From Planctomycetaceae bacterium (lineage in GTDB: Bacteria > Planctomycetota > Planctomycetia > Pirellulales > Pirellulaceae): a DNA stretch of 64,000 nucleotides. The notes beneath the pieces are model-generated. The model was not told the DNA's origin and ran no database searches. It saw only the letters and a list, made by a program, of their open reading frames with translations. Each line of letters starts with the position of its first letter. Position 1 is the stretch's first letter. Shown here piece by piece: positions 28,284 to 49,776 of this stretch. Both the position numbers and the translations under genes were made by a program. The stretch covers positions 62,001-126,000 of the forward strand of contig JAJTFC010000020.1 in the NCBI GenBank assembly GCA_021298315.1, read 5' to 3'.

Positions 28284-30197
28284 ATGCCAATACGAATCGA
28301 TCTAATCAAGGATGGGGTGAATGTAGGGAATATCCTAGTCGACCAGTACGTGGAATTGGGCCGTCGAGACAAATACGATGTCGGAGAGGTCATTCCTTTT
28401 TTTACACAGTCCGGGGATATAGCCCGTTGGGTAATAGCAGACACCGGCGGCGCTAACAAACTTCCTCGGAAAGTATGTGGATTAGAACCACTCGATGGCA
28501 ATAACATTCGGGTAGCTAACATTCATTCCACAAATAGGGAGCTCTGGATCCAAAAAGGAGAATTGAAAACCCAGATTCTTCCGGGTGAATCGATTGAACA
28601 TGCCTTGCCCAGCCAAATTCGACTGCCCGAAGGACTTTCCGTCGAAGTCGCACGGGTCGAGATTTCGGAAATCGAAGCGGAGAACACAAGCGCTCATCCG
28701 GAATTCGACGACCAACTCAAGTCCATTCTCGGTGGAACAGGAACGTCGCTCTCTTTTTCCAGCGGTTCGAGTTTCTTATCACAGAGCACCACAGGAGGAA
28801 CCCATTCGGTTTTCTCCCAAGAATCTGAGTCTGGTGAAAATGGTCGCCTGTTTATACAGGCCATGAAGCATGTGATCCCGGCACTTCAGGAGCCAATCTA
28901 CTCCCCGAAGTACCTCCAAGGCATCGCTCAGGCGGTCATCAACGTGATGGATATGGATCGCGTGGAGATTATCACACGCAAGGACGGGAAATGGATTTAC
29001 GATGAAGAAAATCAATTCCTAAGATCTCGATCGATCGAACCAGAACTTCCGTCTCGCAGCCTACTCGAACGGGTTTTAGCTTCGGGAAAATTATCCACTT
29101 TTCCCGACGAAGCAGATGATGGTCCATCCGAAAGCTTGATGGAGATGCAGTCCGCAATTGCAAGCCCCCTGTTAGATCCCACGGATGACAAAGGTGGATT
29201 GCTCGGAGTTCTCTACGCCGATCGTCGATGCAAAATGGGGTCCGGTCGATCCGCCTCGATCACCAAGGATGAACAAGAGTTTATCGCGATCCTTAGCGTC
29301 GCGACTGCCAACCGTTTGGGGAACGTCAAAAAAGAACAAGAGCTTCATACTTACCAGCAATTCTTCTCCCAAAAAGTCATCTCGAGTCTGCTGGACAAAG
29401 GAGATGCATTTCTCGATGGTAAAGATACCGAGGTAAGTGTTCTTTTCTGTGACATACGCGGCTTTAGTAAAGCGACCGATACGATGGAAGCCAATGCAGC
29501 GATGCAATGGCTTAGCGATACCCTGAGCGAACTTTCCCAGGTCGTTCTCGACGCCGATGGAGTCCTCGTTGACTATGTCGGGGATGAACTCTTCGCCATG
29601 TGGGGTGCGCCCGACGAAGACCCCTCACACGGATACAGCGCGATCCGTGCTGCGATCAAGATGATGGAGATTAAAAGGATGCTCAATGAACGCTACAAGG
29701 GAAAAATCCGATTCAAAATCGATTTCGGAATCGGGCTCAATACCGGCATGGCTCGGGTCGGAAACACCGGCTCAAGGCAAAAATTCAAATACGGACCGAT
29801 GGGCCGAACCGTCAACCTAGGGAGTCGGATCCAAGGTCTGACCAAGCAGTGGCAGGTCTCCACCCTCATGGCCGAAACAACTGCAGCATTCGTGCCACCA
29901 GACACCCCCAAAAGACGCCTTTGCCAAGCCAAGGTCGTCGGACTCGATGGCCACGTAAGCCTCTACCAATTGATGAGCCAACAAGAAGCAAACGACGATT
30001 TGATTTCGCGGTATGCAGAAGGACTTGCGCTTTTTGAATCAGGTCAACAATTCCGGCAAGCGGCAAAACTATTCGGAGAATTGGTCCAAAAATACCCTGA
30101 GGATGGCCCATCGCTCATCATGCTCGATCGCTCGGTCAATCAACTGGTTCATCCCATAGGCGAGTTTTCGCCTGTTTGGGAAGCTTTTACCAAGTGA
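28284..30197 (+). CDS. Class III nucleotide cyclase with FHA-like and GAF domains
   Basis: 637 residues. Residues 1-125 resemble a divergent FHA domain (GRRDK, NNIRVANIHSTNRELWI, LPSQIRLPEG). A GAF-type sensor follows at about 190-350, then a class III cyclase catalytic domain at about 385-560: metal Asp residues in LFCDIRGFS and YVGDELFAMWG, and the transition-state Asn/Arg in TVNLGSRIQ. The substrate-specifying Lys and Asp of adenylate cyclases are replaced by Asp (VDYVGD) and Gly (YGPMGR), so the product nucleotide cannot be predicted. The C-terminus is TPR-like. A soluble cytoplasmic signalling enzyme. Confidence 0.88.
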   Translation: MPIRIDLIKDGVNVGNILVDQYVELGRRDKYDVGEVIPFFTQSGDIARWVIADTGGANKLPRKVCGLEPLDGNNIRVANIHSTNRELWIQKGELKTQILPGESIEHALPSQIRLPEGLSVEVARVEISEIEAENTSAHPEFDDQLKSILGGTGTSLSFSSGSSFLSQSTTGGTHSVFSQESESGENGRLFIQAMKHVIPALQEPIYSPKYLQGIAQAVINVMDMDRVEIITRKDGKWIYDEENQFLRSRSIEPELPSRSLLERVLASGKLSTFPDEADDGPSESLMEMQSAIASPLLDPTDDKGGLLGVLYADRRCKMGSGRSASITKDEQEFIAILSVATANRLGNVKKEQELHTYQQFFSQKVISSLLDKGDAFLDGKDTEVSVLFCDIRGFSKATDTMEANAAMQWLSDTLSELSQVVLDADGVLVDYVGDELFAMWGAPDEDPSHGYSAIRAAIKMMEIKRMLNERYKGKIRFKIDFGIGLNTGMARVGNTGSRQKFKYGPMGRTVNLGSRIQGLTKQWQVSTLMAETTAAFVPPDTPKRRLCQAKVVGLDGHVSLYQLMSQQEANDDLISRYAEGLALFESGQQFRQAAKLFGELVQKYPEDGPSLIMLDRSVNQLVHPIGEFSPVWEAFTK

Positions 30198-30246: not shown

Positions 30247-31674
30247 ATGCCAAACCGTCCTCATTTAGCACTGCTCCTTGCCGGTCTGATACATGCCCTC
30301 TGTGCACCCATTGCCGTCGCCCAAACAAGCAACAAACTTACTTACCAACCCGCACCTGTAGATAATCCATTGAAAGGGCTGGTTCCCTACCAAGGGGACG
30401 TTCGAAGCCGGTTCCCGCATTCTTTGGAATTCAACTACATCGCTTACTCGGATCTCGTCAAAGACTTTGACGTCTACGACTGGGATCCTTTAGAGCGACT
30501 CCTCAATGATACCGCTAGCCGTGGACATCAAGCTGTCATCCGCATCTACTTGGAGTACCCGAAAAAGTCAGGGGTGATTCCGCCATTCCTCATCGACGCA
30601 GGGCTCAAGGTGCATCGTTACTTGAATACCAACACGCAGCCCTTTCCACCCGCCGAAGTCGAAACACCCCATTACGAAGATGTGCACCTACGCCGATCCT
30701 TAAGGGAATTCATCGCGGCGTTTGGAAAGCGGTACGATAACGACCCTCGCCTTGGCTTCATCACCGCCGGACTACTCGGTACCTGGGGTGAATGGCATAC
30801 GTACCCCCGCGATGATCTCTTTGCTAGCAAGACCGTGCAGCAGGAGGTCATGGACGCCTATGAATCGGCGTTCCGAATCACACCCGTCCTTCTGCGGTAC
30901 CCGGCTGGACCGCACGATGAGCGAAAATCAGCCAACACGGATCGAAAATTCGGATACCATGACGACTCCTTCGCTTGGGCAACCCTCCACACCGGAAAAC
31001 AAGACGAGGACTGGTTCTTCATGACCGCGTTGAAACAAGCAGGGGAGCAAGCCGAAGTGAAATGGAAAAGCCAACCTATCGGAGGAGAGATTCGCCCCGA
31101 AGCATGGGGAATCGTATTTGACGAGAACCCCTCGAACCCTCAGGTCCAAGATTTCCAAGACTGCGTCCAGGCCACCCATGCTAGCTGGTTGCTCGACAGC
31201 GGTATGTTTGCGAAACAGCAATCACCGAATCGGATTCAGCGAGCCATCGAACAGGTTCGTAAAATGGGATATGAGTTCTATATCCGCTCTGCAACGATCG
31301 AGCTTGTAGTGCCCACGGATTCAGCGTCGAGCTCAGGTTTGCTCAAGGCGAGCGTTGAAGTCGAGAACCGTGGCATCGCCCCCTTCTATTATCCCTGGAT
31401 CACCGAGTACGCTCTCATTAAAGCAGAAACGAAATTGCCGTCTAAAACATTCCAGGGTAACGGGCGGCTAATCGGGTTACTCCCAGCTCAACAACCAAAG
31501 CGATGGCAAGAGACCTTCGATCTCCAAGGGATACCCTCAGGACGTTATACCCTTGCGGTTCGCGTCCCGAATCCATTGAAGCAAGGCAATCCGGTACGGT
31601 TTGCAAATGCCGAACAAGATCAAGACAGCCCAACTTGGTGCTCCTTGGGAGTTGTAGAGGTCCCTAAATGGTAG
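30247..31674 (+). CDS. DUF4832 domain-containing secreted protein
   Basis: 475 residues with a signal peptide (LALLLAGLIHALCAPIAVAQ). The N-terminal half carries the DUF4874-like start NPLKGLVPY, and RIYLEYP with GLLGTWGEWHTYP; the C-terminal half matches DUF4832 with the GGEIRPEAWG segment. Such proteins look like glycoside-hydrolase-type barrels and are found in polysaccharide-using bacteria; the substrate is unknown. It lies 49 bp downstream of the cyclase gene on the same strand. Confidence 0.75.
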   Translation: MPNRPHLALLLAGLIHALCAPIAVAQTSNKLTYQPAPVDNPLKGLVPYQGDVRSRFPHSLEFNYIAYSDLVKDFDVYDWDPLERLLNDTASRGHQAVIRIYLEYPKKSGVIPPFLIDAGLKVHRYLNTNTQPFPPAEVETPHYEDVHLRRSLREFIAAFGKRYDNDPRLGFITAGLLGTWGEWHTYPRDDLFASKTVQQEVMDAYESAFRITPVLLRYPAGPHDERKSANTDRKFGYHDDSFAWATLHTGKQDEDWFFMTALKQAGEQAEVKWKSQPIGGEIRPEAWGIVFDENPSNPQVQDFQDCVQATHASWLLDSGMFAKQQSPNRIQRAIEQVRKMGYEFYIRSATIELVVPTDSASSSGLLKASVEVENRGIAPFYYPWITEYALIKAETKLPSKTFQGNGRLIGLLPAQQPKRWQETFDLQGIPSGRYTLAVRVPNPLKQGNPVRFANAEQDQDSPTWCSLGVVEVPKW

Positions 31675-36233: not shown

Positions 36234-36516
36234 TTTACTACAAATTCCCCAGGGAATCGTGGTTGGGAGGGTCGGAGTTGGTTTCGCCCAAACCAACGCC
36301 GATGACGTTTTGATCGTCTGGCGAATCATTGGGGAGCTGAAGTTGGGGGCTCACGACGAGCTTCTTGCCAGGCTCTTCGGCTTGGCGAACTTGGCGCCTT
36401 TGCGGTGAGTTTGGGACGCTTTCCGACAGGCTCGCGCCGTTGCGCTAACGCCACGCCATCGTGCGTGAAGCCGAGTCTGAATCAGTCAATCGGTTTTTGC
36501 TTTGATGGAACTGTCC

Positions 36517-38333
36517 ATGACCAAGAAAAGACTACTACTTGTCGGTTGGGATTCCGCCGATTGGAAACTAATCCATCCCCTGATGGCCACCGGCAAAATG
36601 GCTTATCACCACGGTGTCCCAGGCTTTACCGAAGTCGAGCCTCAATCGGGTGCTATCGTTCCGGTCTCTGCAGCCACGCGCAAATGCAAGACGGTCTGGG
36701 AAATCCTGGCCGAGCGGGGACTCAAAAGCCACATTGTCAGTTGGTTTGCGACCCAAGGCGAACGGGACATTCCCGACAAGATGGTCTCAAACATGTATTG
36801 CCACGTCCCCGATGTCCCGGCGGATTCTGATCCAGCGAATTGGCCCCCCCTCCACCAGGTACCTACTTTCCTGATGAGCTTGCTGAACTCCTGAACGAAG
36901 ACCGCATCAGTACCCACGATATCGATCCCGATTATGTGGTTCGACTGTTCGTTCCCAATGCCCCCAAAGTCGATCAGGCGAAAAACCTGCGTTTATGGCA
37001 ACTTGCAAAACTAGTGACTATGTCCAGGTGCTTGCGAATTGCCAATTCCAATTAAAAATGCTCGAAGAGGCCGATGCGACGATCGATCAGGCTCGTAACC
37101 ATTTCGGTCGTACCGAAAATGCGGATTCGATCAAAGCTTCGATTGCGATCGAGAAAGCGGATTTCAAAACCGCATTGGATCTATTGCACGGTGTGCAGGA
37201 CAAGATGCCACAAGAGGTCCAGATACAATGGTTTTTTGGCTCGTTGCTATGCGGCGCTTCGGAGTTGGGACGAAGGCTTAGCGGCGGTTGGACGCGTGCT
37301 TGAGGCCGACCCAGACAATGCCCACGCGTATTTGGTCAAGACCCGCATCGAATTGCATCAACAACGAGCCCATGAGGCGATCGATTCGGCGCTGGCAGCG
37401 ATCGGCTTGCAGTATGGCAACCCGATGGGTCATTTCCTATTGGGAACGACTCTTCTGCAATTGAACAAGTTGCGTGAGGCAGAGAAAGCGCTGCGCAATT
37501 GCCATCAGCTAGCGCCTCGATTTCTACCAGCCATGCGCATGCTGGCGCGAATTTATCACCGGCTCGGAGAGTTCGACAAATTCACACAGATCGAGAATCT
37601 TAGAACTCAGACAGCCGTGGAGATCCGAGAGTCCCATCATCGTGAGTTGGCAAGGTTGCGATTGCTGGCAGCACAGCGCAAATCCGATCGCGACGCGATG
37701 GATCGCGAAAAGCAAGCGCAGTTCGATCGAAAAGAGGCCGAGATCGCAGCCATCGAGCCTCTGGAGATTTTGGTCGTCTCTGGACTACCTCGATCCGGGA
37801 CGTCGCTCATGATGCAGATGCTAAATGCCGCTGGCATCGAACCGATGACCGATGGCAAGCGGACTGCCGATGACGATAATCCCGAAGGGTATTGGGAGTG
37901 GGAAGAGATCAAGCAGTTGCCCAGGAATCCTAGGATCATCGAGCAAACTGCCGGTAAAGTCGTGAAGGTGATTTCGGCGGTTTTGCCGTCTTTGCCAAGA
38001 CCCCATCGCTACAAGATCATTTACATGGTCAGGCCTACGCAGCAGGTGGTTGATTCCCAGATGGTGATGCTCGATCGTCAGGGTAAAAAGGCCCGATCGG
38101 AAAAGCAGCATTTGATCGAGGTGCAGGAATCTCACAGTAGGCAGATACGTCATGTGCTCAGCCAAAGCGACCGTGTGGATTTGCTCGAGGCTGCGTACCC
38201 GGATTTGGTGGCCGATCCACAACCGGTCATCGAGCAGATAGACAAACTCCTGGGTAGCCGATTCCAAGCTTCGCCTGCGGTACGTGCCTGCATTAAGCCG
38301 AAGCTATTTCGAAATCGCCAACCCTACTTCTAG
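36517..38333 (+). pseudogene. Remnant of alkaline phosphatase-TPR-sulfotransferase gene
   Basis: The N-terminal part starts with MTKKRLLLVGWDSADWKLIH, a type I phosphodiesterase/phosphatase N-terminus, but jumps from ATGKMA straight to YHHGVPGFTE, losing about 35-40 residues present in relatives. A run of seven C near 36843 then shifts the frame (PPPPGTYFPDELAELL continues in another frame), and the phosphatase stops around 37010, without its catalytic remainder. TPR repeats follow in a third frame, with another shift at a T run near 37230. From there to 38333 one open frame encodes TPRs and a sulfotransferase domain with the PAPS-binding GLPRSGTS motif. The full gene is clearly not functional as read. 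Confidence 0.75.
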
Positions 38334-38748: not shown

Positions 38749-39795
38749 GTGTTGCTGGCTCGCAAAATGCACCTTCATTACGGCCCGATCGCTTTGGCCA
38801 GCCTGCTGATTATCAGCGGTGGCGTGTGGCAGTATTCCTTGGGCACCAAAGACAGCCCTGCGACGGGAAGTTCACCGGCAGGATTGGTCGTCGGAAGCAT
38901 CGCCGCTGGAATCATCCTCTTTGAACTGCTGCTATGGCCAAGGAAGCGATTAAGAAAACATAAACTGGGGCGAACCAAATTTTGGGTCGCTTATCATCTC
39001 TGGCTCGGACTCGCCTGCGGCCCCCTAGCCTTCATCCACTCAGGATTTCGCTTTGGGGGTACCTTCACCACCATTCTGATGGCACTTCTAGGGCTGGTGC
39101 TCACAAGCGGTGTCTTTGGCTGGGTGATGCAGGTGTTTATCCCACGTTGGATGCTCGGCAACCTCCCCCAGGAAACAATCCCTAGCCAAATCGACGATGT
39201 CTCCTTGCTCAGCGCACTGGAAAATCGCCAAATGCTCACCGTTGCGCTGGGCACCAAACCACCCAATACCGGAAAACTCGTCGCTCTCGAGGACCAACTA
39301 TCCGCTTTGAAATCAGGGCTCTCTGTCTCCTCGATGAAATACGCCGATGCGACACCGGGACTCGACAAGAGCAACGCAATCGTCGTCGGAGCTAGGCAGC
39401 GGCGGGATCCGCAACGGGCGAGTTTTGGACAAGACTTGGCCGATGATCTGAATGCAGCAGATCGCATTGAAATATGGAAACAGTACACCCTGGTGATCGA
39501 ACCTTTCTTGCTGAAAAACATCGTCCCAAACAGCACGAGATCGACAAGCCGCTCGCCGATTGGCAATCTGCAACGTACCCAGGAGTGGTTCAAGAATCTT
39601 CAGGCCTCCTGCTCCGACTCCGCCTACCCAATCCTCATAGCCTTGCAGTCAACCGTCGAAGAGCGACTGCAATTCGACGCACAGCGGATGGCACACGCCT
39701 GGTTGCATCGCTGGATCGCTTTTCATGCAGGCATCAGCGTTATGCTCGGTGTCCTGCTGATCGTCCATATCATTCAATCCCTTCGCTACATGTAA
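38749..39795 (+). CDS. Predicted diheme cytochrome b-type membrane protein
   Basis: 348 residues. Hydrophobic helices are seen at about 12-30, 43-62, 77-98, 107-130 and 323-342. Two helices each hold a pair of His residues 14 apart: H83 and H97 (AYHLWLGLACGPLAFIH) and H326 and H340 (AFHAGISVMLGVLLIVH). Such pairs are the typical way diheme b-type cytochromes hold a heme near each face of the membrane. A soluble loop of about 180 residues lies between. No standard family name came to mind; a distant PepSY or ferric-reductase relative is possible. It is first in the five-gene redox operon, 29 bp before the decaheme gene. Confidence 0.7.
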   Translation: MLLARKMHLHYGPIALASLLIISGGVWQYSLGTKDSPATGSSPAGLVVGSIAAGIILFELLLWPRKRLRKHKLGRTKFWVAYHLWLGLACGPLAFIHSGFRFGGTFTTILMALLGLVLTSGVFGWVMQVFIPRWMLGNLPQETIPSQIDDVSLLSALENRQMLTVALGTKPPNTGKLVALEDQLSALKSGLSVSSMKYADATPGLDKSNAIVVGARQRRDPQRASFGQDLADDLNAADRIEIWKQYTLVIEPFLLKNIVPNSTRSTSRSPIGNLQRTQEWFKNLQASCSDSAYPILIALQSTVEERLQFDAQRMAHAWLHRWIAFHAGISVMLGVLLIVHIIQSLRYM

Positions 39796-39824
39796 CCGAT
39801 TGAGGCTCTAGGACCTATTAAGTT

Positions 39825-41369
39825 ATGGCGATCACAGGTAAGCAGCGTTCACGTCGAATCGACCGGAACTACACCTCGTCTCAGGATCCATCGATCCTCT
39901 GGAAGAGGTGGTTCGGCTGGGCCGGTCTGATCCTTGGGGGCCTTTACGGTCTTTGGTTGCTTACCCCCTCCGCGGCCAAACAACTCAGTACCGGCACACT
40001 CTCAAAAGCCCACCACGCCTGGAACGAAACAGGATGCGACCAATGCCATGCACCATGGAGTCCTATCAACACCACGAGCTTCGCAAGATCCCCTGAGGTC
40101 ATTGCCGATAACAATCGGCGCTGCAACGACTGCCACAAGATGGCAGACCATTACCCCGGTGCGACGGAACACAGTCTCCTCGCCCTCGAATCGTGTGTTC
40201 AATGCCACCACGAGCATTTAGGGATCAACCACAACCTGTTGGACATCGCCGATGAATCCTGCGTCCGCTGCCACGCTGATCTCGCTAAATTCGTCATCGA
40301 TGCGAATCGACCTCTCTCCAAAGTGACCAGCTTCGACTCAACCAACGGTATCCCTGGACATCCACACTTCCAAGGGTTAGTCCGTGACCCAGGAACCATC
40401 CAATTCAGCCACACCCAACACTTGCGGCCAGGACAAGCCCTGAGACCTGGCGATCTATCCGCCAAAACCTGGGACTCGCTCCCCCTCGCATTCCAAGATC
40501 AATACCAAAAACCGAAAAAAGGCTCCGATCCGATTCAATTGACTTGTAGCGATTGCCACGAAAGAGATCATCCCATTGCAGGATTCGAAACGCTCGAGGG
40601 TCCGAACGCGACTTCAGCAACCAATTCTCTAGGCCGCCAAACCAACGCGCATGTACTCTACAAGCCGATCGAGTTTAGCAAGCACTGCGAAGCATGCCAC
40701 CAATTGGATCTACCTCATAAACTCGATTTCAAGGACAAGAACCAGCTTCTGGATATCGTCGCTACAAGCCAACAGCAACGCTTGGCTCGATCCGAGCGTT
40801 TGCAAAGCACCTCCAATCCATCCGAATCGTCCGTCGATGAAGAAAACCGACTTCGAATTGCAGGGACGGCTTCGGGCCAAGATCTCATCGGGCTCATTAA
40901 ACAGAACAACCCGCTGGCAAAGACCGAGATCTTCAAAACCTACGCTTGCTCCAAGTGCCATCAACCGGCCACCGATCTAGCCTTCAATAACAACCTTGAG
41001 TCCATCGTCGCCCCAAGCTCCCTGCCCACGCAATGGCTCAAAAAAGCGAGCTTTTCTCACGGTCCACATATCAATATTCAATGCGATGAATGCCACAAAA
41101 TCAGGCTCGATTCAAACGATTTATCCTTAGGCAACCTTGCAAGCGATGTCCTTATCGATGGAATCCAAGGATGCCAAAAATGCCACATCGTCGATGAAGC
41201 GAAACGAAGGGAGGCGCAAGTTGACGGGGTTAAAATCATCGCTCGGGCCGATTGCATCGATTGCCACCGATACCACGATCACGGACCGCAAGGAACGGCA
41301 ACCGGATCAGGACAAACCGGATTAGGACAAACCGTAACTCAGGGATCCACAGGGACCGCTTCCCCATGA
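39825..41369 (+). CDS. Membrane-anchored decaheme cytochrome c
   Basis: 514 residues. A single N-terminal helix (FGWAGLILGGLYGLWLLTP, about 30-48) likely anchors it with the hemes in the periplasm. Ten CxxCH motifs are visible in order: CDQCH, CNDCH, CVQCH, CVRCH, CSDCH, CEACH, CSKCH, CDECH, CQKCH and CIDCH. Spacing with HxxH-type His residues suggests the cytochrome c3/NapC superfamily of multiheme folds. The C-terminus has a Gly/Thr/Gln-rich tail from an imperfect 15-bp repeat. Its stop overlaps the next start as ATGA (41366-41369). It probably passes electrons between the membrane cytochrome b and the pentaheme protein. Confidence 0.88.
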   Translation: MAITGKQRSRRIDRNYTSSQDPSILWKRWFGWAGLILGGLYGLWLLTPSAAKQLSTGTLSKAHHAWNETGCDQCHAPWSPINTTSFARSPEVIADNNRRCNDCHKMADHYPGATEHSLLALESCVQCHHEHLGINHNLLDIADESCVRCHADLAKFVIDANRPLSKVTSFDSTNGIPGHPHFQGLVRDPGTIQFSHTQHLRPGQALRPGDLSAKTWDSLPLAFQDQYQKPKKGSDPIQLTCSDCHERDHPIAGFETLEGPNATSATNSLGRQTNAHVLYKPIEFSKHCEACHQLDLPHKLDFKDKNQLLDIVATSQQQRLARSERLQSTSNPSESSVDEENRLRIAGTASGQDLIGLIKQNNPLAKTEIFKTYACSKCHQPATDLAFNNNLESIVAPSSLPTQWLKKASFSHGPHINIQCDECHKIRLDSNDLSLGNLASDVLIDGIQGCQKCHIVDEAKRREAQVDGVKIIARADCIDCHRYHDHGPQGTATGSGQTGLGQTVTQGSTGTASP

Positions 41370-42952
41370 ACCAGATTTGGACCCGAGTTATCCTCAGCCT
41401 GATTTTCGCTTCGGTTGCCACCCTATCTGTTGCGCGGGCCCAATCCAATTCGATCCATCGAGCCAATCCCGATTTCGCCAATCCCGATTTCTTCGTCAAG
41501 CGCGATTGCAACTCATCCAACTGCCACGGAAACACCGTTGAGAACTCTTTTCTATGGAACCAATCTGGCGAAATTTGGTTCCAGCACGATCCCCATGCGA
41601 ACGCTTATGCCCGGCTTCTGAATGCCGATTCCCAGCGAATCGTCCAAGCCCTCTGGGACCATAACAAATCCTTCCCGAAAACGACCACAGACCCAGCGTT
41701 TCGTGAGTTTTTGGAAACGCGCTGTGTGGCTTGCCATGCGAGCGAATTGGCCCCAAAGACCCAACGTATCCAAGGTATCGATTGCCAAGCCTGCCACGGC
41801 TCGGCGATCCATTGGGACGACTCCCACTTCTCAAGCTCTTGGAAAACCTTAGGAGCCCGGCGCTTTTACGATCATCCCTCGGCCCAAGGCCGAGTCAATA
41901 CCGAATCGACTTGGCAACTCGCTCAAGTGTGCGGATCGTGCCATATCGGGCAACTCGGAAGAACCGATAAGGTGCAATTCAACGACCAGCCCCCCATCCC
42001 CATGGGCCAACAAGAAGTTTCTCACCAACTGATGGCCGCCGGCCACCCTCCGACCTATTTCGAGTTGAGCAATTTTTTGACCCGTTACCCAAAACACTGG
42101 TGGGACAACAAAAATGTTGCCGCACCGACGGCCACGCCAGACGTCGGCCCAAACATCACAACAAACCCCGTGGCCGAATCGCTCGATACTTGGCGGATTG
42201 GTAAATTGGTCAATGCGAAACAACGCCTCGAACTCCTTATGAATCGCCTGGGCAAACCCGAATGGCCCGAGTTGACCGAGCATCGATGTACAAGCTGCCA
42301 CCATCCGATCGACGCAAATCGAAAAACAATCGCTCCTGCAAGTCAACCCTTCGCGGAATGGGATGGATGGTACCTCGAACACATCGATCTGGCCCTTGCT
42401 CTGACCCAATTTCCCAATACCCATTCCGCCAGTACCGATTCGACCCGTACCGACTCTCCCTGCGGCCCCATGGGAGAATCCCCGATCCCTTTCTCGCACC
42501 CGAGTGTGCAATCCTGGGTTTCGCACTACAAGCCCCTTAAGCAATTGCTTTTGAATCCTCTTGCCAATCATCCAACGGGACAAACGGACGAAATTCGGAA
42601 ACGCATCGACGCGATGCTCGAGCTTCTTGAACCGATTCTCGAATGCCAATATCCGATCGTTATGCCCGGTCAGATTCCACCGATCCGAGAGGCTTGGAAA
42701 AGTAGGATCTGGCCTTCATTTAGCCACGGACCCTCCTGGGAGTCTGCCGTGCAATGGAGACTTGCAAACCAAGCCCTCTGCGAGGTCGAAATCCCCGGTC
42801 AAATCATCCTACCCTTCGAACCCCAAAAATGGGATTTTCCCACAACCATGTGGACACGGACTCAGCAGATGCCCTACCAAGCTTCCCGCTTTTTCAATCC
42901 AGAAGATTTCAAAAAGCAGCTTCTTGATAACATCGACTCCCTCAAACGATAA
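41366..42952 (+). CDS. Pentaheme cytochrome c family protein with CX4CH motif
   Basis: 528 residues from ATG 41366, chosen because it overlaps the previous stop (ATGA) and places a signal peptide (LSLIFASVATLSVARAQ) at the N-terminus; the frame is open upstream to 41252 but in coding sequence of the decaheme gene. Heme motifs in order: CNSSNCH (CX4CH, residues 48-54), CVACH, CQACH, CGSCH and CTSCH, the same pattern as the protein at 26589-28061. AAGHPPTYFELSNFL follows the fourth. A periplasmic electron carrier, part of the redox operon; the next gene begins 3 bp later. Confidence 0.88.
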   Translation: MNQIWTRVILSLIFASVATLSVARAQSNSIHRANPDFANPDFFVKRDCNSSNCHGNTVENSFLWNQSGEIWFQHDPHANAYARLLNADSQRIVQALWDHNKSFPKTTTDPAFREFLETRCVACHASELAPKTQRIQGIDCQACHGSAIHWDDSHFSSSWKTLGARRFYDHPSAQGRVNTESTWQLAQVCGSCHIGQLGRTDKVQFNDQPPIPMGQQEVSHQLMAAGHPPTYFELSNFLTRYPKHWWDNKNVAAPTATPDVGPNITTNPVAESLDTWRIGKLVNAKQRLELLMNRLGKPEWPELTEHRCTSCHHPIDANRKTIAPASQPFAEWDGWYLEHIDLALALTQFPNTHSASTDSTRTDSPCGPMGESPIPFSHPSVQSWVSHYKPLKQLLLNPLANHPTGQTDEIRKRIDAMLELLEPILECQYPIVMPGQIPPIREAWKSRIWPSFSHGPSWESAVQWRLANQALCEVEIPGQIILPFEPQKWDFPTTMWTRTQQMPYQASRFFNPEDFKKQLLDNIDSLKR

Positions 42953-42955
42953 ACC

Positions 42956-44827
42956 ATGAAATCTCTCGTTGAACGACAAGTGGGAACCCGGATCGCCAAG
43001 ATGCTCCAAGAAGTGCAGCATCGTCAAGGGTACATCAACGACAACGATATCGCGAGGATCGCCGGTCAAGTCGGTGAACCGTCGCGTGTGATCCAAGACG
43101 TGGTGAGCTTCTTCCCACATTACAGCCGGCAAGCTCCCGCCAAGTGCCGCGTCGCCATCTGCCGAGACATGAGCTGCCGTCTCCGAGGCTCGGTCCAAAT
43201 CGCTCAGCAACTCCAGGAGCTTGCTGACCAAGTTGGCCATGAGAACTTGCACGTTCACGAAGCCTCTTGCCTTGGTCGATGCGACCGTGCACCGGCGATG
43301 ATCATCGAGGGCTCAAATTCGAATGCGACGGCACATGGCCAATCGCTCTTCGTCGGCCGCAAGGTCGATGAGTACCGCCGAATCATCCAAAGCGTACTCG
43401 AAGGAGAGCATCCTCAAGGCGATTCGGATCAAGCCCTTGCACAAGCGACGATGGACCGCTCGGAAATCGATTGCTACCGAAGCGGTACGATCCAACAGAA
43501 ATACGCGGCGGTGAAGGGCTTTTTGCTAGACCCGAGCAACGACCGCGTAATCCAAGCCCTCAAAAATGCCGGTTTGCTCGGTATGGGGGGAGCCGGCGCT
43601 CCTGCTTTTTCTAAATGGGAAGAAGCTCGTACAGCACCTGGTGAGACCAAGTACGTTGTGTGCAACGCCGACGAAAGCGAACCGGGAACCTTTAAAGATC
43701 GCGAGATACTCCTTGCCGCTCCCCATTTGGTGATCGAAGGCATGACGATGGCCGCTTTGGTAAGCGGAGCAAAGCAAGGATACATCTATATCAGGCACGA
43801 ATATCAGGAGCAAATCGATCAGCTACAGGAAGCGATCGAACAAGCCGAGCGGCTCGGAGCGCTGGGATCCAACATATTCCAAAGCGGCCGAACCTTTCGG
43901 CTCGAGGTGTTTATCAGTCCAGGTGGTTACGTGTGCGGTGAACAAACCGCGTTGATCGAGGCGCTCGAGGGAAAACGATCGGAACCTCGAAATCGTCCAC
44001 CTGAATTGCAGACCAACGGACTTTACGACCAACCGACCATTCTCAACAACGTCGAAACCTTTGCATGGGTGCCATCGATTCTTTTGAAAGTACCCTCCGA
44101 AGGCAACCTGCTCAAAGAGCAAGCAAAGGATCCATCGGCGACGAATCAAACGCCAGGCCTTTGGTACAAGTATGCAGGTCGCAATCGATCCAAAGGAAGA
44201 AGGTACTTCAGCATCAGCGGCGATTTGAATCGCCCCGGAGCCTATGAGGTTCCTTGCGGTATCACACTCGGGGAATTGATCGACGATTACGCCGGCGGGA
44301 TGAAGGATGGAGTCCCCTTGCTGGCCGTAGCGCTCAGCGGCCCTTCCGGAGGCTTTCTACCTGCCATGCTGCCCGAGAAATCGATTCGTCTGCCGAAACT
44401 TACCGATAAAGAAGGGAAGGAAACGGCCGATTTCAAGTATCCCGCGTTATCCAAAACTCCCACCGATATCCGATTGCTACCCCTTGATATCGATGCGTCA
44501 CGCGAGATCGGATTCATGCTCGGAGCCGGGATCGTCGTTTACGGCGAGACCGCAGATCTGCTCGATCAAGCGATCGCATGTAGCCAGTTTTATCAACGCG
44601 AGTCCTGTGGCAAGTGCGTCCCTTGCCGTTTGGGCTCGAGAAAAATCGTCGATATGGCTCAGCAACTTGCAAATACCAAGAGCCCCGAGAGTATCGTTCC
44701 GCAGTTCATCGACCACGCGAACCTGCTCTCGCGCATCATGCGCACAACAAGCATCTGCGGGTTGGGACAAGTGGCCAGCGAACCGTTTCGTACCTACCTG
44801 CGGTACTTCCACACGAACGACCGATAA
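42956..44827 (+). CDS. Fused NuoE-NuoF-like NADH dehydrogenase subunit
   Basis: 623 residues. The NuoE part shows the [2Fe-2S] ligand set C69-x4-C74 and C105-x3-C109. The NuoF part follows with GLLGMGGAGAPAFSKW and CNADESEPGTFKDRE, which bind FMN and NAD(P)H, GGYVCGEQTALIEALEG, and the N3-type 4Fe-4S motif SCGKCVPCRLGSRK near residue 550 plus a late Cys in TSICGLGQ. The layout is like HydB/HndC-type flavoprotein subunits and complex I diaphorase modules. It should be cytoplasmic, oxidising (or reducing) NAD(P)H and passing electrons to the next gene product. No hydrogenase or complex I membrane subunit lies nearby. Confidence 0.92.
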   Translation: MKSLVERQVGTRIAKMLQEVQHRQGYINDNDIARIAGQVGEPSRVIQDVVSFFPHYSRQAPAKCRVAICRDMSCRLRGSVQIAQQLQELADQVGHENLHVHEASCLGRCDRAPAMIIEGSNSNATAHGQSLFVGRKVDEYRRIIQSVLEGEHPQGDSDQALAQATMDRSEIDCYRSGTIQQKYAAVKGFLLDPSNDRVIQALKNAGLLGMGGAGAPAFSKWEEARTAPGETKYVVCNADESEPGTFKDREILLAAPHLVIEGMTMAALVSGAKQGYIYIRHEYQEQIDQLQEAIEQAERLGALGSNIFQSGRTFRLEVFISPGGYVCGEQTALIEALEGKRSEPRNRPPELQTNGLYDQPTILNNVETFAWVPSILLKVPSEGNLLKEQAKDPSATNQTPGLWYKYAGRNRSKGRRYFSISGDLNRPGAYEVPCGITLGELIDDYAGGMKDGVPLLAVALSGPSGGFLPAMLPEKSIRLPKLTDKEGKETADFKYPALSKTPTDIRLLPLDIDASREIGFMLGAGIVVYGETADLLDQAIACSQFYQRESCGKCVPCRLGSRKIVDMAQQLANTKSPESIVPQFIDHANLLSRIMRTTSICGLGQVASEPFRTYLRYFHTNDR

Positions 44828-44839
44828 CCTTCCGAACGA

Positions 44840-47365
44840 ATGTCTTCAAATATGGCTTCAAATCAAGACCTCTTGGATGGCAATGAGTACATCAGCGCCC
44901 GTGAGGAAGCGCTCTTTGCTCGCGATGTCGATGGCCAACTGATCCGTAGAGCAGATGCGTCGTTGACCGATTTGGAATTGGATGTTCGCATCACCATCGA
45001 CGGCCAGGCGATGGTGGTCAAGAAAGCGGTTCCACTCCGAAACTCTCAAGGAGTTGTGTTGGTCAACGATCGAGGTGAGGTCATTCCAAGGCCGACGACG
45101 ATCTATGATGCGGTGACTCGAATGTATGTGCGAAGCGTCCAGGACATCAATCCCGTGCCTGTACTGTGCCATCGTGAGCACCTTCAACCCGTCGGGGTTT
45201 GCCGCGTTTGCATGGTCGAAATCCAAGAGCAACGCAAAAGTGGACGGGTCAAAAAGGACTTGGTCTCTGCGTGCACTTATCATGTCAAAGAGGGGATGGT
45301 CATCACCACGTTGGCAAGCACCGAGAGCCCAAAGACGGTCGAGGTCCTCAAGGATTCCGTCGGAGTGATCGTCGAACTGCTCGCATCGGAACACATGAGC
45401 CAACAAGATCGCGAAAGCTTGGTCGACTCGCCCAAGCGATACGAACCGAACGAGTTGAAAAAACTCGTCCATCGATTTGTGCCGGACCCAGTCCAATTGC
45501 GGTACCCTCCAAGCGAACTCGCAGGCAAAAGGGGCTTGGATCCATCCTCGGAAATCATCTCGGTCGACCACGACGCATGCATTCTGTGCCAGCGTTGCAC
45601 GCGCGCATGCAACGAAATCAAACACAACGATGTCATGGCCCGTGATGGCAAAGGCTATCCGACGAGAATCGCTTTCGATACCAACCTACCCATGCTCGAA
45701 AGCTCCTGCGTTTCCTGCGGCGAATGCGTCATTTCATGCCCTACCGATGCGCTGCAATTTCGACCGCTGGTCATCGAAAAGCAAATTGCAAAACTGTCCG
45801 ACGATCTGCATCTGGACACCAGCCAAAGCGGCGATCCATCCACGGAAGTTCTTTCCCCCGAACAAATGCTCGACATCCCTATCTTCACCGGGATTCCTTA
45901 TAAGTTTCTACAGTTCAACGGCGGAGCTTGCGTACGCCGCATCCTGCAACCCGGCGACGTACTATGCAAAGAAGGCGAATACGGTTCGACCGCCTTCTTG
46001 ATCCAACGCGGAAAATTCGAAATTCAAATCTCTCGATCTCGCAGCAAAGCAGTCAAAAAGCCCGCCGAACGAAAAGGCTTTTTCAATCGCATGCTATCAA
46101 GCGGATCCAAGGGGGTCGCCACCCTGGCTACCGGATCGGACACCTCGAATTCCAAGGGTGAAACAAGACTTTTCCGAGGCCCCGAGGACGTCATCCTCGG
46201 AGAAATGGCTTGTTTGAATCGAAGCCCACGAAGCGCAACGGTCGTGGCCGTTGAGGAATCCGAGGTCATCGAAATCGGAAGCAACGTCCTGTACATGCTC
46301 CAACGCAACAGCGCTAGCCTCAAACTGCTCAACGAAGCTTACCGCCGCCATGCTCTGAACTCGAACCTTAGCCGTACCCCACTGTGTCGCTCGCTAACGC
46401 CAGTGGAATTGGATCGACTGGCACAAGCTGTTGAGCTGATCAGTGTCGAACCAGGTCAACCGATCTTCAAAGAAGGGGAACTCGGTGATGAGGTCTACAT
46501 GATACGACTCGGTTACGTGAAATTTTCCCGTATGCAAGGGATGCGGGATCAGGTCATTACCTACATGGGGCCGCCAAACATCGAAGGAGAAGTCGGGGTG
46601 TTTGGGGAAGTGGCCGTTTTATCGAAACTCTACGAGAGCGAATTGGCTGATGAACTGCAAGCCTTGAATTTTGCGCCAGGGATTCGAACCTCAAGCTGCA
46701 CAGCGTTGGACCACGTCGAGTTGGTTCGGATCCCCGGATCGATTATCCGGGAACTGACCGAAGCAAATTCCGAATTTCGAAAAACGCTACTGGATCGTGC
46801 CGAGACGCTCTTGCGCCGCGATGCGACTCGGGATGTCTCCGAGAATACGCTCAAAGCGAATTTCGTCGCGCAAGGGCTCTACAACGCTCAGAGCCTTCTG
46901 GTCCTGGACCTTGAATCATGCACCCGTTGCGATGAATGCTCGAAAGCTTGCGCCGATGCTCACGAAGGGCAAACCCGTCTGGTACGCGAAGGACTTCGCT
47001 TCGAGAACTTCCTGGTCGCCACAAGCTGTCGCTCTTGTACCGATCCGTACTGCTTAGTCGGTTGCCCGGTCAATGCAATCTTCCGAGAGGGAGACAAGGA
47101 GATCGTCATCGAAGACCACTGCATCGGCTGTGGGCAATGCGCCACGAATTGCCCCTATGGCAACATCACCATGTATGGGCATCAAGACGGATATCGCCAA
47201 GAGGGAAACCAAAAGATACCCGTTGTACGGCAACGGGCGACTACCTGCGACCAATGCAAAAGCATCGGTGGTACGCCCCGCTGTGTTTATGCTTGCCCTC
47301 ATGAAGCTGCTTACCGAATGTCAGGCGAGCAACTCACGACGATGGTCTCGGAACGAAACAATTAG
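44840..47365 (+). CDS. NuoG-type Fe-S / double cyclic-nucleotide-binding / DmsB-like Fe-S fusion protein
   Basis: 841 residues. N-terminus: 2Fe-2S ferredoxin domain (C110, C121, C124, C145) as in NuoG, then two 4Fe-4S sets (C247, C250, C253, C257 and C290, C293, C296, C300). Residues of about 350-500 and 515-675 are two cyclic-nucleotide-binding domains; the first keeps the phosphate-binding cassette GEMACLNRSPRSATV with Glu and Arg, the second is degenerate. Residues of about 690-830 form a DmsB/HybA-like ferredoxin domain with four clusters (CTRCDECSKAC, CRSCTDPYCLVGC, CIGCGQCATNC, CDQCKS...CVYAC). No molybdopterin domain is present. The protein can link the NuoEF module to a membrane partner; ligand control is inferred. 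Confidence 0.88.
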   Translation: MSSNMASNQDLLDGNEYISAREEALFARDVDGQLIRRADASLTDLELDVRITIDGQAMVVKKAVPLRNSQGVVLVNDRGEVIPRPTTIYDAVTRMYVRSVQDINPVPVLCHREHLQPVGVCRVCMVEIQEQRKSGRVKKDLVSACTYHVKEGMVITTLASTESPKTVEVLKDSVGVIVELLASEHMSQQDRESLVDSPKRYEPNELKKLVHRFVPDPVQLRYPPSELAGKRGLDPSSEIISVDHDACILCQRCTRACNEIKHNDVMARDGKGYPTRIAFDTNLPMLESSCVSCGECVISCPTDALQFRPLVIEKQIAKLSDDLHLDTSQSGDPSTEVLSPEQMLDIPIFTGIPYKFLQFNGGACVRRILQPGDVLCKEGEYGSTAFLIQRGKFEIQISRSRSKAVKKPAERKGFFNRMLSSGSKGVATLATGSDTSNSKGETRLFRGPEDVILGEMACLNRSPRSATVVAVEESEVIEIGSNVLYMLQRNSASLKLLNEAYRRHALNSNLSRTPLCRSLTPVELDRLAQAVELISVEPGQPIFKEGELGDEVYMIRLGYVKFSRMQGMRDQVITYMGPPNIEGEVGVFGEVAVLSKLYESELADELQALNFAPGIRTSSCTALDHVELVRIPGSIIRELTEANSEFRKTLLDRAETLLRRDATRDVSENTLKANFVAQGLYNAQSLLVLDLESCTRCDECSKACADAHEGQTRLVREGLRFENFLVATSCRSCTDPYCLVGCPVNAIFREGDKEIVIEDHCIGCGQCATNCPYGNITMYGHQDGYRQEGNQKIPVVRQRATTCDQCKSIGGTPRCVYACPHEAAYRMSGEQLTTMVSERNN

Positions 47366-47371
47366 AGATCT

Positions 47372-48520
47372 TTACTCGGTTAATTCCAGGAGCAAAATCT
47401 CAGCATGTAGCCCAGGCCCAAAACCGAACACCAACCAATACCCAGCCCTAGGGCCGTAAAGCTCCCGAGTGTTCGAATACAGGATCTCCTCGATGATAAA
47501 GAGGATCGTAGGCGAGGACATATTTCCGTAGTTGGCTAATGTTCGACGGGATGCGGAGAGCTTCGTTTCGTCCAGCCCCATCGCCTTATCGACCGAATCG
47601 AGAATTCTGGGGCCTCCAGGATGAACAACCCATTGCCGAATATCGTCTGTTGAAATCCCCAGTCCGGCAAGCCAAGCTTCGATAGGCTCTTTAAGCCTCT
47701 CCTCGATGCGCGAGGGTACAAGCGACGAGAGGGTCATTTGAAATCCATGATCTCCGATCTTCCAGGTCATCAAATCGGCCGAGTCGGGGATCTTCAATGA
47801 CAAAGACGAGACGATGCGCAAGTGAACTTGGCCCGGTTGGCGGATGGATGCCGAGGCGTTGGTGACCACGGCCGCTGCCGCTCCATCGGAGAAGAGCGAA
47901 TTGGCGACAATTTGCTCTGGGTCTTCCGTGTATTGCTGATGGATGCTGCACAGTTCAACCGCTCCTACCAGAACAACCGCTCTTGTGTCGGATTCTGCGA
48001 TCGCTTGGGCCACTCGCAGACCGTTTACCATCGCATGGCACCCCATAAACCCGATGTGCGATCGCTGAGTCGTCAAGCTCAAACCAAGCGACTCAAACAG
48101 AACATGATCGAGCCCTGGGGCACAGAATCCTGTGCACGAAACGGTAATCAAATGCGTGATCGCCGATGCTTCAATTCCTGCTCGTTGAATCGCAGCTTGG
48201 CAGGTTTTTGTGAGCAAAGGTCCAGCGTGCGTCGCGTAAACTTCCATGCGTTCGGCAGTGGTCGGGCCAAACGGTGCTTCCGCTGTCGGGGGCTTGTAAA
48301 AGGATTGCCGCGCGTCGGGATCGTCTCCCGCAGCACTCAGCAGGACGCTCGCTCGACGCAAAACTCCGGATTTGAGATACAGCTTTGGCAGGACCTTATT
48401 CCAGCGTTGGGTCAGGCCTAATCTCTGGATCACCCCAGCGGCGACCTCTTGGTCAATCACCCCCTCGGGAATTCTCGTGCCGGTCCCAAGAATCACCGCT
48501 CCGGATTGCCTGTTGATCAT
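47372..48520 (-). CDS. Type III polyketide synthase (chalcone/stilbene synthase family)
   Basis: 382 residues from ATG 48520, which overlaps the previous stop as TGATG; an upstream ATG at 48634 is less likely. The catalytic triad is visible: Cys in VSCTGFCAPGLDH, His in WVVHPGGPRIL and Asn in YGNMSSPTILF. These enzymes condense malonyl-CoA on acyl starters to give alkylresorcinols, alkylpyrones or related products. It is last in a three-gene operon with a methyltransferase and an FAD oxidoreductase, the same trio as in the Streptomyces srs phenolic-lipid cluster. The starter acyl group cannot be read from the sequence. Confidence 0.93.
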   Translation of the reverse strand: MINRQSGAVILGTGTRIPEGVIDQEVAAGVIQRLGLTQRWNKVLPKLYLKSGVLRRASVLLSAAGDDPDARQSFYKPPTAEAPFGPTTAERMEVYATHAGPLLTKTCQAAIQRAGIEASAITHLITVSCTGFCAPGLDHVLFESLGLSLTTQRSHIGFMGCHAMVNGLRVAQAIAESDTRAVVLVGAVELCSIHQQYTEDPEQIVANSLFSDGAAAAVVTNASASIRQPGQVHLRIVSSLSLKIPDSADLMTWKIGDHGFQMTLSSLVPSRIEERLKEPIEAWLAGLGISTDDIRQWVVHPGGPRILDSVDKAMGLDETKLSASRRTLANYGNMSSPTILFIIEEILYSNTRELYGPRAGYWLVFGFGPGLHAEILLLELTE

Positions 48521-49776
48521 CACTGTACCGCCTTTTTCAAAATGCGAGTTCGGAACCCTGGGATCCAATGACAAGCTTGGACTACCCATTGCGAGCGGGT
48601 CGGATGCCTCGCTTGCTTGGCGACCCAACGGCATACACGGTGCCGGAATCGCCTCTGCTTTTGGACATAAACTTCCCAGTCCCTAACTGCTTGCGTTTTG
48701 GTTCGGGGATCTTGCACAATCCGAACAAGGTTCGGAGCGAGCGTTTCAGCGTTGTCCAACGCCCATGACATCCCCTCGCCTGTAAAAGGCTCGATGTAGC
48801 CCAATGCATCTCCGACGAGAAAAATCCCCGGCTTGGCGACGACCTTGGAAGTCCGTGTCAGAAGACTGGTAGCCATCCAATGGCAATCGGCAAAGGATTG
48901 TTGTGTCTTGATTCCGCAGTCCCCGAGGATTTCGCAGACCGCTTGGCCGATTCCCCCGGCACTCGATACTCTCTTGGGATCCAAAGCAGCGGCCAAGTCG
49001 ATGAGTTCCCCATCGGTCAAGCAAATTCCGACGTAGCCATGATGGGACGATAGCATGTGCAGACGGCCGCGATCGCTCTGGAGCATTCGATGCAATTCCG
49101 GCTCCGATTCGGCAAGACTCTCAAGCGACACCAGGGATTGGACTCCGATGCGGGAATCAGGAGCGATGACCGAAGGCCAATCCCGCTGAAGTCGTAACGC
49201 CGAACGGTTCAAACCCGCAGCAATCACCAAACAACGCGCCTGCGCCGCTTTGGGCTTGAATTGGCCCGAGGGATCCGACGGGTGGGAGCCCTCGCTAGAT
49301 CGAAGCTCAACCTCTAGGCGATCTAGGACCTGGCCATGATCGGCAGGCAACACCGCAGTCGTGTTTTGCAAAAAATCGGCTCCCGATTTGATCGCGCGCC
49401 GGACCAAAATCGCATCGAGTGTCGAGCGCCGAATGCTCAAGAGTGATGGGATCGGCCAAATGTGCCCTACGCCTTTGACTTGGACGTGCAGTTCGCTAAG
49501 CCTTACCGATCCGGCGGCTCGTAGATCGTGCTCCACTCCTAGTCTTTCCAACGCATCTTGGGCTCGCACATTCAAGCAGCCACCACAAACCTTTTCGCGA
49601 GGGAAGGACTTCGACTCGACTAAGAGTACCTTCAAACCCGATTTCGCGGCGAGGATGGCGGTTGCACAACCAGCAACTCCAGCCCCGACGATGATCACAT
49701 CCCAAATACAATCGATAGCCGATTCGTAGCCGAGAGTCGAACTCAAGGAATCGAGGGGTTCTTTCAGGGAGCTCAT
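48520..49776 (-). CDS. FAD-dependent oxidoreductase (geranylgeranyl reductase/PHBH-like)
   Basis: 418 residues from ATG 49776, preferred because it overlaps the methyltransferase stop as ATGA (a longer frame starts at 49800). The FAD-binding GxGxxG is seen in VIIVGAGVAGCATAI, and a second FAD motif in GDALGYIEPFTGEGMSWAL. The middle has RSTLDAILVRRAIKSG, typical of the geranylgeranyl reductase and aromatic hydroxylase superfamily. In this operon it probably hydroxylates or reduces the polyketide product, perhaps turning a resorcinol into a quinone, as SrsC does in Streptomyces. That assignment is inference from context. Confidence 0.85.
   Translation of the reverse strand: MSSLKEPLDSLSSTLGYESAIDCIWDVIIVGAGVAGCATAILAAKSGLKVLLVESKSFPREKVCGGCLNVRAQDALERLGVEHDLRAAGSVRLSELHVQVKGVGHIWPIPSLLSIRRSTLDAILVRRAIKSGADFLQNTTAVLPADHGQVLDRLEVELRSSEGSHPSDPSGQFKPKAAQARCLVIAAGLNRSALRLQRDWPSVIAPDSRIGVQSLVSLESLAESEPELHRMLQSDRGRLHMLSSHHGYVGICLTDGELIDLAAALDPKRVSSAGGIGQAVCEILGDCGIKTQQSFADCHWMATSLLTRTSKVVAKPGIFLVGDALGYIEPFTGEGMSWALDNAETLAPNLVRIVQDPRTKTQAVRDWEVYVQKQRRFRHRVCRWVAKQARHPTRSQWVVQACHWIPGFRTRILKKAVQ

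Follow-up and report, generated by a model that had tools for sequence, protein, structure and literature searches.

A five-gene operon of a Planctomycetaceae bacterium that may encode a cyclic-nucleotide-controlled electron conduit from NAD(P)H to multiheme cytochromes

The window analysed here, a stretch of 64,000 nucleotides from a Planctomycetaceae bacterium (assembly GCA_021298315.1, contig JAJTFC010000020.1, positions 62,001 to 126,000 of the forward strand), carries a five-gene operon whose products may form a trans-envelope electron conduit under cyclic-nucleotide control. Electrons from NAD(P)H would pass through FMN and Fe-S clusters to a diheme cytochrome b, then to a decaheme cytochrome, and on to the outer membrane. 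Going by the sequences, we favour this reading with moderate confidence. More tentatively, at a little under an even chance, we regard the system as a widespread and undescribed complex, whose electron flow is gated directly by a cyclic nucleotide via a PKA-like pair of cyclic nucleotide-binding (CNB) domains, and which combines a new kind of diheme cytochrome b with decahemes and an outer-membrane barrel. A ligand-gated electron wire would, to our knowledge, be the first of its kind. The proteins of genes 1 to 5 are called P1 to P5 and the window genome G000; other genomes carry G numbers and loci L numbers. The operon consists of:

38749..39795, plus strand: gene 1 (P1), membrane protein with five transmembrane segments, probable bis-His diheme cytochrome b (open reading frame call, transmembrane and His pattern)
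39825..41369, plus strand: gene 2 (P2), N-terminally membrane-anchored decaheme c-type cytochrome (CxxCH count, transmembrane prediction, Pfam)
41366..42952, plus strand: gene 3 (P3), exported pentaheme cytochrome, Cytochrome_C554-like (Pfam, heme motifs)
42956..44827, plus strand: gene 4 (P4), NuoE-NuoF fusion, FMN/NAD(P)H module with [2Fe-2S] and N3 [4Fe-4S] clusters (Pfam, NCBIfam, PDB)
44840..47365, plus strand: gene 5 (P5), CNB-FeS protein of 841 residues, with a NuoG/HydA-like N-terminus, two CNB domains and a HydN-like C-terminus with 4x[4Fe-4S]

A first-pass annotation of the window had reported five plus-strand open reading frames (ORFs) with gaps of 29, -4, 3 and 12 bp, and we re-derived the same positions and spacing. 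The start of gene 5 lies 4 codons downstream (MAxxx) in most aligned orthologues, and the last gap would then be 24 bp. The products were also as described: P1 has two His pairs 14 residues apart (H83/H97 and H326/H340), P2 an N-terminal transmembrane segment and 10 CxxCH motifs, P3 four CxxCH motifs and one CX4CH, and P4 is a NuoE-NuoF fusion according to both Pfam and NCBIfam. The account of P5 as a NuoG/DmsB-like Fe-S fusion was right about both ends of the protein but overlooked its tandem cNMP_binding domains (PF00027). Also overlooked were a cyclase upstream of the operon and, elsewhere in the genome, a co-inherited predicted outer-membrane barrel with an LVIVD decaheme. None of the five proteins reaches a curated NCBIfam cut-off among the matches listed (for P5, the best 25 of 72). 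The interpretation of the operon as an NAD(P)H-cytochrome b-multiheme cytochrome system is supported by what follows: at the level of sequence, the parts of the genes, their conserved linkage and their intact cofactor and ligand motifs are established.

A chance arrangement of the genes is ruled out, since orthologous operons in the same order occur genus-wide and the same gene set occurs outside the genus. Among 25 genus-level genomes (own included), 14 hold at least part of the five-gene operon, here called type A (G000, G003, G006, G008, G009, G010, G012, G013, G014, G016, G019, G020, G021 and G023). The order is P1-P2-P3-P4-P5 as far as the contigs reach; P1 is not seen in G006 and G010, where the contigs start inside P3 and P2, respectively. 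A second arrangement, type B, has three genes, which encode a CNB-FeS protein without the NuoG part, a P1-like protein and a multiheme cytochrome (10 CxxCH where complete), with no NuoEF seen. It is found in nine of the other 11 genus genomes. Of the remaining two, G022 has its CNB-FeS gene at the end of a contig, and none was found in G017 (80% complete); G020 and G023 hold both types. Several type B loci, including L035, L128 and L132, have a further pentaheme cytochrome of ~620-640 residues nearby.

In the phylum, a P1 profile matched 105 of 392 genomes at E<=1e-6, of which 56 (own included) matched at E<=1e-20; matches weaker than this cover only part of the protein and may come from relatives of P1. 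With a P5 profile in named genomes, the best 80 of 550 relatives were taken as loci, and 79 of these 80 have a type A P5. By title they comprise 43 Planctomycetota, 32 Acidobacteriota, 3 Rokubacteria, one actinobacterial metagenome-assembled genome (MAG) and one Rhodanobacteraceae; the planctomycete carriers include Roseiconus nitratireducens, Rhodopirellula sallentina, Tautonia sociabilis and three MAGs labelled Ca. Kuenenia. The first-pass annotation had proposed the staying together of the genes in other genomes as a test, and in loci compared across phyla they are kept together in related and distant genomes alike. The planctomycete order is mostly P1-P2-[P3]-P4-P5 (L154, L155 and L160 are rearranged), whereas in Acidobacteriota and Rokubacteria it is mostly P4-P5-P1-P2, P3 being transcribed divergently; the genes remain neighbours despite the different order. 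The 79 type A loci, many on short contigs, contain NuoEF in 74, cytochrome b in 59, the decaheme in 55 and P3 in 56 cases. Where at least 6 kb is available on both sides (43 loci), the counts are NuoEF 42, cytochrome b 38, decaheme 37, P3 35, barrel 18, LVIVD-decaheme 12 and cyclase 12. Type B loci have NuoEF in 0/30 and the decaheme in 29/30. A quick P5 tree (midpoint root, two long branches flagged) nests the versions of Acidobacteriota and Rokubacteria within planctomycete diversity.

The window genome has a second type A copy, split over contigs C63 and C8 (L021, L056), with P1, P4 and P5 78-83% identical and P2 and P3 48-50% identical to those of the window; two extra P3-like multiheme genes are divergent from this operon. 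Contamination from the fetched congeners was rejected as its source, because its P1, P4 and P5 are only 52-88% identical to theirs. It may be of other contaminant origin, the genome being 4.4% contaminated. A further variant is found on a Sphingobium conjugative megaplasmid (NZ_CP020539.1, L067), which encodes a protein with Pyr_redox, two CNB and Fe-S parts, a P1-like protein, a decaheme and an LVIVD multiheme cytochrome. Here a Pyr_redox flavin domain takes the place of the NuoG-like part. This suggests, from sequence comparison, that the nicotinamide input can be exchanged as a module, the core being the CNB-FeS protein, cytochrome b and decaheme. The plasmid search that led us to this variant returned no record covering 80% of P5 in one place. 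The L067 trio is flanked on both sides by metallophosphoesterase genes, and the decaheme carries a PF16697 (FHA-like) domain at its N-terminus.

P4 has the FMN/NADH-binding NuoF-like core with N3 that characterizes HydABC/Bfu: the NuoE and N3 cysteines are present in 90/90 rows and the FMN/NADH loop residues in 86-90 of 90 rows, and the best PDB matches are HydB (7t2r_B, 7q4v_B). The protein ends 19 residues past the N3 cluster (17-61 in homologues) and has no Fer4 Pfam match, and thus it lacks a C-terminal 2x[4Fe-4S] domain of BfuB type. P5 can be divided into four parts:

45062..45769, plus strand: P5 residues ~75-310, HydA/NuoG-like relay with a [2Fe-2S] and two [4Fe-4S] clusters (PDB 7q4v_A, HydA1, E 4.3e-18)
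45887..46354, plus strand: P5 residues ~350-505 (approximate), CNB domain 1, binding cassette GEMACLNRSPRSATVVA with E455 and R464 (PF00027, PDB)
46367..46834, plus strand: P5 residues ~510-665 (approximate), CNB domain 2 with E590 and R616 (PF00027)
46886..47344, plus strand: P5 residues ~683-835, HydN/HycB/DmsB-like ferredoxin with four [4Fe-4S] sites (PDB 7qv7_A, HycB3, E 7.2e-15)

What we take to be the His-Cys3 cluster site of HydA/NuoG is gone in the window P5 and partial in the acidobacterial rows printed from the alignment. The HydN-like cysteines are 16/16 invariant in a 22-row alignment of both types; in 79 type A rows twelve of them are fully conserved (100%) and the final four are present in 94-98%. 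The cNMP_binding match (PF00027, E 5.6e-23) extends from ~350 to ~665, between the two Fe-S modules, and the best-scoring solved CNB structure is a PKA regulatory subunit (PDB 3of1_A, E 4.1e-13, residues 452-565). The Glu and Arg of the phosphate-binding cassette of CNB receptors are present in type A P5 across several phyla: E455 and R464 in 79/79 rows each, E590 and R616 in 77/79 each. P5 looks built to respond to a cyclic-nucleotide signal.

P1, with its five transmembrane segments, has no Pfam or NCBIfam match. The first-pass annotation had put it forward as a diheme b candidate, and this gains weight from the alignment of one row per locus plus the window, in which the four His that a bis-His diheme b requires, together with W79, are invariant in 123/123 rows (both types and Sphingobium); some named-genome loci are the same contigs as other fetched loci, so that this and the sister residue counts are not fully independent. 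In the structural model (mean predicted local distance difference test score, pLDDT, 76.9) helices cover the five transmembrane segments, and the two conserved His pairs, with the spacing of 13-14 residues expected of a bis-His diheme cytochrome b, lie on two transmembrane helices (within 76-97 and 290-347). A PDB sequence search gave three matches (best E 0.085), none usable. Loop 63-78 is basic (8 K/R, 0 D/E), and by the positive-inside rule the long 4-5 loop (190 residues) should therefore be cytoplasmic. With this topology one heme would face the cytoplasm and P5, and the other the periplasm and P2. P1 is probably a bis-His diheme cytochrome b, its heme binding being predicted from these patterns.

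P2 appears to be anchored N-in and matches Cytochrome_C7, Cytochrom_c3_2 and Paired_CXXCH in Pfam; a PDB sequence search with it gave nothing usable. Across 118 loci the decaheme has 10 CxxCH motifs in 95, 9 in 11 and other counts in 12. The N-terminus of P3 is signal-peptide-like. Its first heme motif is the CX4CH at residue 48 (window 41507 on), and the same holds for most homologues printed, in both phyla.

A multiheme cytochrome of ~1300 residues with LVIVD repeats recurs beside many loci. In the window genome its counterpart lies on another contig, C16, where it directly adjoins a barrel candidate:

G000:C16, L218:6883-10962: LVIVD decaheme, 1359 residues, 10 CxxCH, 61% identical to the L149 protein
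G000:C16, L218:10975-12981: 668-residue protein, predicted outer-membrane barrel

Neither has a PDB sequence match, and the 668-residue protein also has no Pfam family. Barrel homologues were found in 29 of the loci searched (L134 weakly, E 7e-17), and of 34 barrel homologues examined 33 end in F, W or Y, compared with 5.2% of 1015 control ORFs. An AlphaFold2 model has 18 strands of at least 10 residues between 191 and 667 (mean pLDDT 72.2; 275 residues at 90 or above; residues 1-188 below 50). With this outer-membrane-protein-type C-terminus and the 18-strand model, the arrangement of a barrel encoded with a multiheme cytochrome, known from Mtr/porin-cytochrome systems, is predicted here too. 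The barrel is present in 13/14 type A congeners and in 1/11 others (Fisher 3.5e-5), the exceptions being G003, where the contig with the LVIVD gene is truncated at the beginning, and G017 (80% complete). Among the 392 phylum genomes it is present in 39, any P1-profile match in 105 and both in 33 (P 1.6e-15), and 25/56 genomes with full-length P1 have it (P 1.3e-14), by tests that ignore shared ancestry. The LVIVD family was found in 9/10 type A and 1/9 other congeners (19 searched; a G001 match in a 5218-residue frame was counted as a different protein), and nine of the ten proteins were fetched, each with 10 CxxCH, that of G016 being left out. The barrel/LVIVD pair is co-inherited with the operon.

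A possible source of the ligand lies upstream of the operon, together with a gene that sits between cyclase and P1 in G009:

28284..30197, plus strand: class III nucleotide cyclase, putative ligand source (PF00211, E 4.9e-15)
30247..31674, plus strand: DUF4832 protein, membership in the system doubtful

The aligned core of the cyclase retains what we take to be the metal-site aspartates and the N..SR motif. A homologue is directly upstream of P1 in the second copy of the window genome (L021) and in G003 (L040), and two genes upstream in G009 (L022). A PF00211 match at most 10 kb from P1 on the same contig occurs in G000 (both copies), G003, G009 and G013, that is, in 4/14 type A genomes of the genus, with contig ends in G012 and G019 leaving the neighbourhood unseen; G030, from another family, has one as well. 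Outside the genus, 55 genomes besides that of the window match P1 at E<=1e-20, and 52 of these were examined (all but the weakest three, G229, G285 and G377). At least 13 of the 52 have such a match, where the numbers of cyclases and the sizes of the genomes lead one to expect 0.68; a repeat search covered ten genomes, and any weaker PF00211 matches overlooked could only raise the count. Seven of the 13 belong to one genus and have two cyclases each, one of them at the P1 locus; counted by family, the figure is 5/20 against 0.66 expected (P 2.7e-4). In the named-genome set a home-made profile found a cyclase in 16/79 type A loci, a raw count for Acidobacteriota as for the others.

Taken together, these features suggest how the system might work. 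NAD(P)H would be oxidised at the FMN of P4, and electrons would move through the P4 and N-terminal P5 Fe-S clusters to the HydN-like clusters of P5, from there to the two b hemes of P1 and across the membrane, and then to the decaheme P2, anchored in the membrane, and the pentaheme P3. Where it is present, the barrel/LVIVD-decaheme pair encoded elsewhere (on C16 here) would receive them from P2/P3 and provide an exit at the outer membrane. Binding of a ligand made by the nearby class III cyclase to the PKA-like CNB tandem would open or close this wire: within P5 the two Fe-S relay modules are linked through the CNB pair, and a ligand-driven rearrangement could therefore connect or disconnect them. 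We infer that P1-P5 assemble into one complex. Outward flow would be favoured by the membrane potential and, for most acceptors, by the redox gradient too; it would conserve no energy, which would be a good reason for gating.

Several of our results weigh against this gated, outward reading. The window cyclase lies 8.5 kb from the operon, behind a kinase/ECF stretch, and a cyclase is near only a minority of loci, both among the operon-bearing congeners and outside the genus. The CNB1 Arg is displaced in 9/9 type B rows of the genus (PHRFT and the like instead of PRSAT; the type B row of G030, one of ten aligned, retains it), and ligand control may therefore not be universal. A fold search with P1 in the PDB gave no support for a known cytochrome b, the matches being helical sensor domains (best E 0.23), and five of the 43 well-flanked type A loci have no cytochrome b within the locus (L148, L158, L162, L172 and L199), L148 being also without linked NuoEF. 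The barrel/LVIVD pair is unlinked to the operon in this genus, and the co-occurrence tests disregard shared ancestry. A crude strand-alternation score separates the barrel homologues weakly (4.5 vs 3.9 per 100 residues). Closure of the 668-residue protein into an outer-membrane beta-barrel is presumed from the modelled strands, and with 18 strands it would be narrower than MtrB, which reportedly has 26, and might not enclose a heme chain.

Part of this evidence would suit a constitutive, ungated supply of electrons from NAD(P)H to the periplasm, in the manner of a bacterial NOX or a DsbD-type reductant line. The CNB domains would serve to link parts of the structure, and the cyclase would lie nearby by chance or have nothing to do with the operon, while P2/P3 would feed periplasmic reductases and the electrons may stay in the cell. 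The loci without a cyclase nearby, which are the majority, the displaced type B Arg and the unlinked barrel and LVIVD genes all fit this, as does the presence of the system in Roseiconus, Rhodopirellula sallentina, Tautonia and Sphingobium, which we take to be aerobes. Near-invariance of the four type A ligand residues across phyla is, however, unexpected for a linker, and cyclase enrichment near the loci and co-occurrence of the barrel point the same way; we consider an ungated supply unlikely, if deserving of serious attention. Flow in the opposite direction, with electrons from outside or the periplasm reducing NAD(P)+ via P2 and P1, as in Fe(II) oxidation, strikes us as quite improbable: every cofactor is reversible in principle, but inward movement opposes the membrane potential, and Pfam finds no Rieske, b6-type cytochrome or pump domain in the five proteins. 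Slightly less probable still is a non-pumping NAD(P)H:quinone oxidoreductase, with P1 reducing quinone and P2/P3 as side acceptors. Bis-His membrane cytochromes b often have quinone sites, but P2 is a near-constant partner of P1, even without NuoEF, as the type B loci and 37 of the 38 well-flanked type A loci holding cytochrome b attest. The precedent for reverse flow comes from anammox planctomycetes, which are proposed to form NAD(P)H with a heme c/b/FAD/NAD complex of the Rieske/b kind (PMC12954380).

As the first-pass annotation had suspected, the combination resembles no named complex, none having been found in Pfam, NCBIfam, PDB sequences or the open-access literature; in the last (subscription papers and preprints being outside its scope) we found no account of this gene system. 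It was rejected as a complex I fragment, as the five proteins have no NuoL/M/N/H-type pump match in Pfam (related loci were not searched for pump subunits); as an NrfD-based complex such as alternative complex III, as P1 matches no Pfam family; and as an anammox-type Rieske/b complex, as no Rieske or b6-type Pfam match occurs in the five proteins. Membership of Bfu/HydABC was rejected as well, because BfuB has a C-terminal 2x[4Fe-4S] domain and none was seen beyond N3 in P4. The kinship with HydABC/Bfu is evident in P4, nearest to HydB, and in the N-terminus of P5, nearest to HydA (7q4v_A), but here no H-cluster or other catalytic domain follows the relay (Pfam), the His-Cys3 site is lost, and CNB domains and membrane partners are added. 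Tmc/Hmc complexes of sulfate reducers also combine periplasmic multiheme c, membrane b and cytoplasmic Fe-S; they are not known to contain an NAD(P)H module or CNB, and P1 has no Pfam match at all. NADPH oxidase and ferric reductase share a cytoplasmic nicotinamide donor and two bis-His b hemes across the membrane, whereas here the Fe-S/FMN input is in separate subunits, the output is c-type, and P1 has no Pfam or fold match. The tandem CNB with GE...PRxAT-type cassettes recalls PKA regulatory subunits and CRP, whose domains control a kinase or DNA binding; in P5 they are set between Fe-S relay modules.

The closest described idea is that of the anammox Rieske/cytochrome b complexes with NAD(P) oxidoreductase (Kuste4569-4574 and Kustd1480-1485; PMC12954380), which, in planctomycetes too, link a cytoplasmic NAD(P) module, Fe-S, membrane heme b and positive-side multiheme c. 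Those complexes hold Rieske, b6-like and subunit-IV-like proteins, none of which was seen here, and an FAD module instead of NuoEF (FMN); the present system adds CNB domains and a P1 of no known family. An inner-membrane cytochrome, periplasmic multihemes and an outer-membrane barrel with a multiheme partner are also the components of Mtr/porin-cytochrome extracellular electron transfer (PMC6295460, PMC5615132). Entry there is described as quinol-linked (CymA, CbcL, ImcH, with no 'NADH' in that text; PMC6295460), whereas here it would be NAD(P)H, with a built-in cyclic-nucleotide receptor and a barrel without Pfam or PDB sequence match. With verrucomicrobial porin-multiheme clusters (PMC5615132) the idea of a novel porin is shared.

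Other genes surround the operon in the window. Convergent with it, on the minus strand (47372-50537), are genes for a type III polyketide synthase (chalcone/stilbene synthase-like), an FAD-dependent oxidoreductase and a third protein, methyltransferase-like by eye; this group is also kept beside the operon in G009, G019 and G013. Upstream, a Ser/Thr kinase-TPR protein and an extracytoplasmic function (ECF) sigma factor (31856-35394, minus strand) separate the cyclase and DUF4832 genes from P1; this stretch is possibly an insertion in this lineage, as the two genes and P1 are close neighbours in G009 (L022). TPR/sulfotransferase-like ORFs at 36502-38333 match longer ORFs in G019 (L023) and are possibly broken in the window.

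If the gated conduit is real, lineages of Acidobacteriota, Planctomycetota and Rokubacteria would be able to send electrons from NAD(P)H to the cell surface without involving quinones. It would also place second-messenger control on the electron-transfer protein itself, not on transcription. Being modular, with NuoEFG-type, flavin-disulfide-reductase-type and input-less versions, the system bears on the evolutionary assembly of respiratory complexes.

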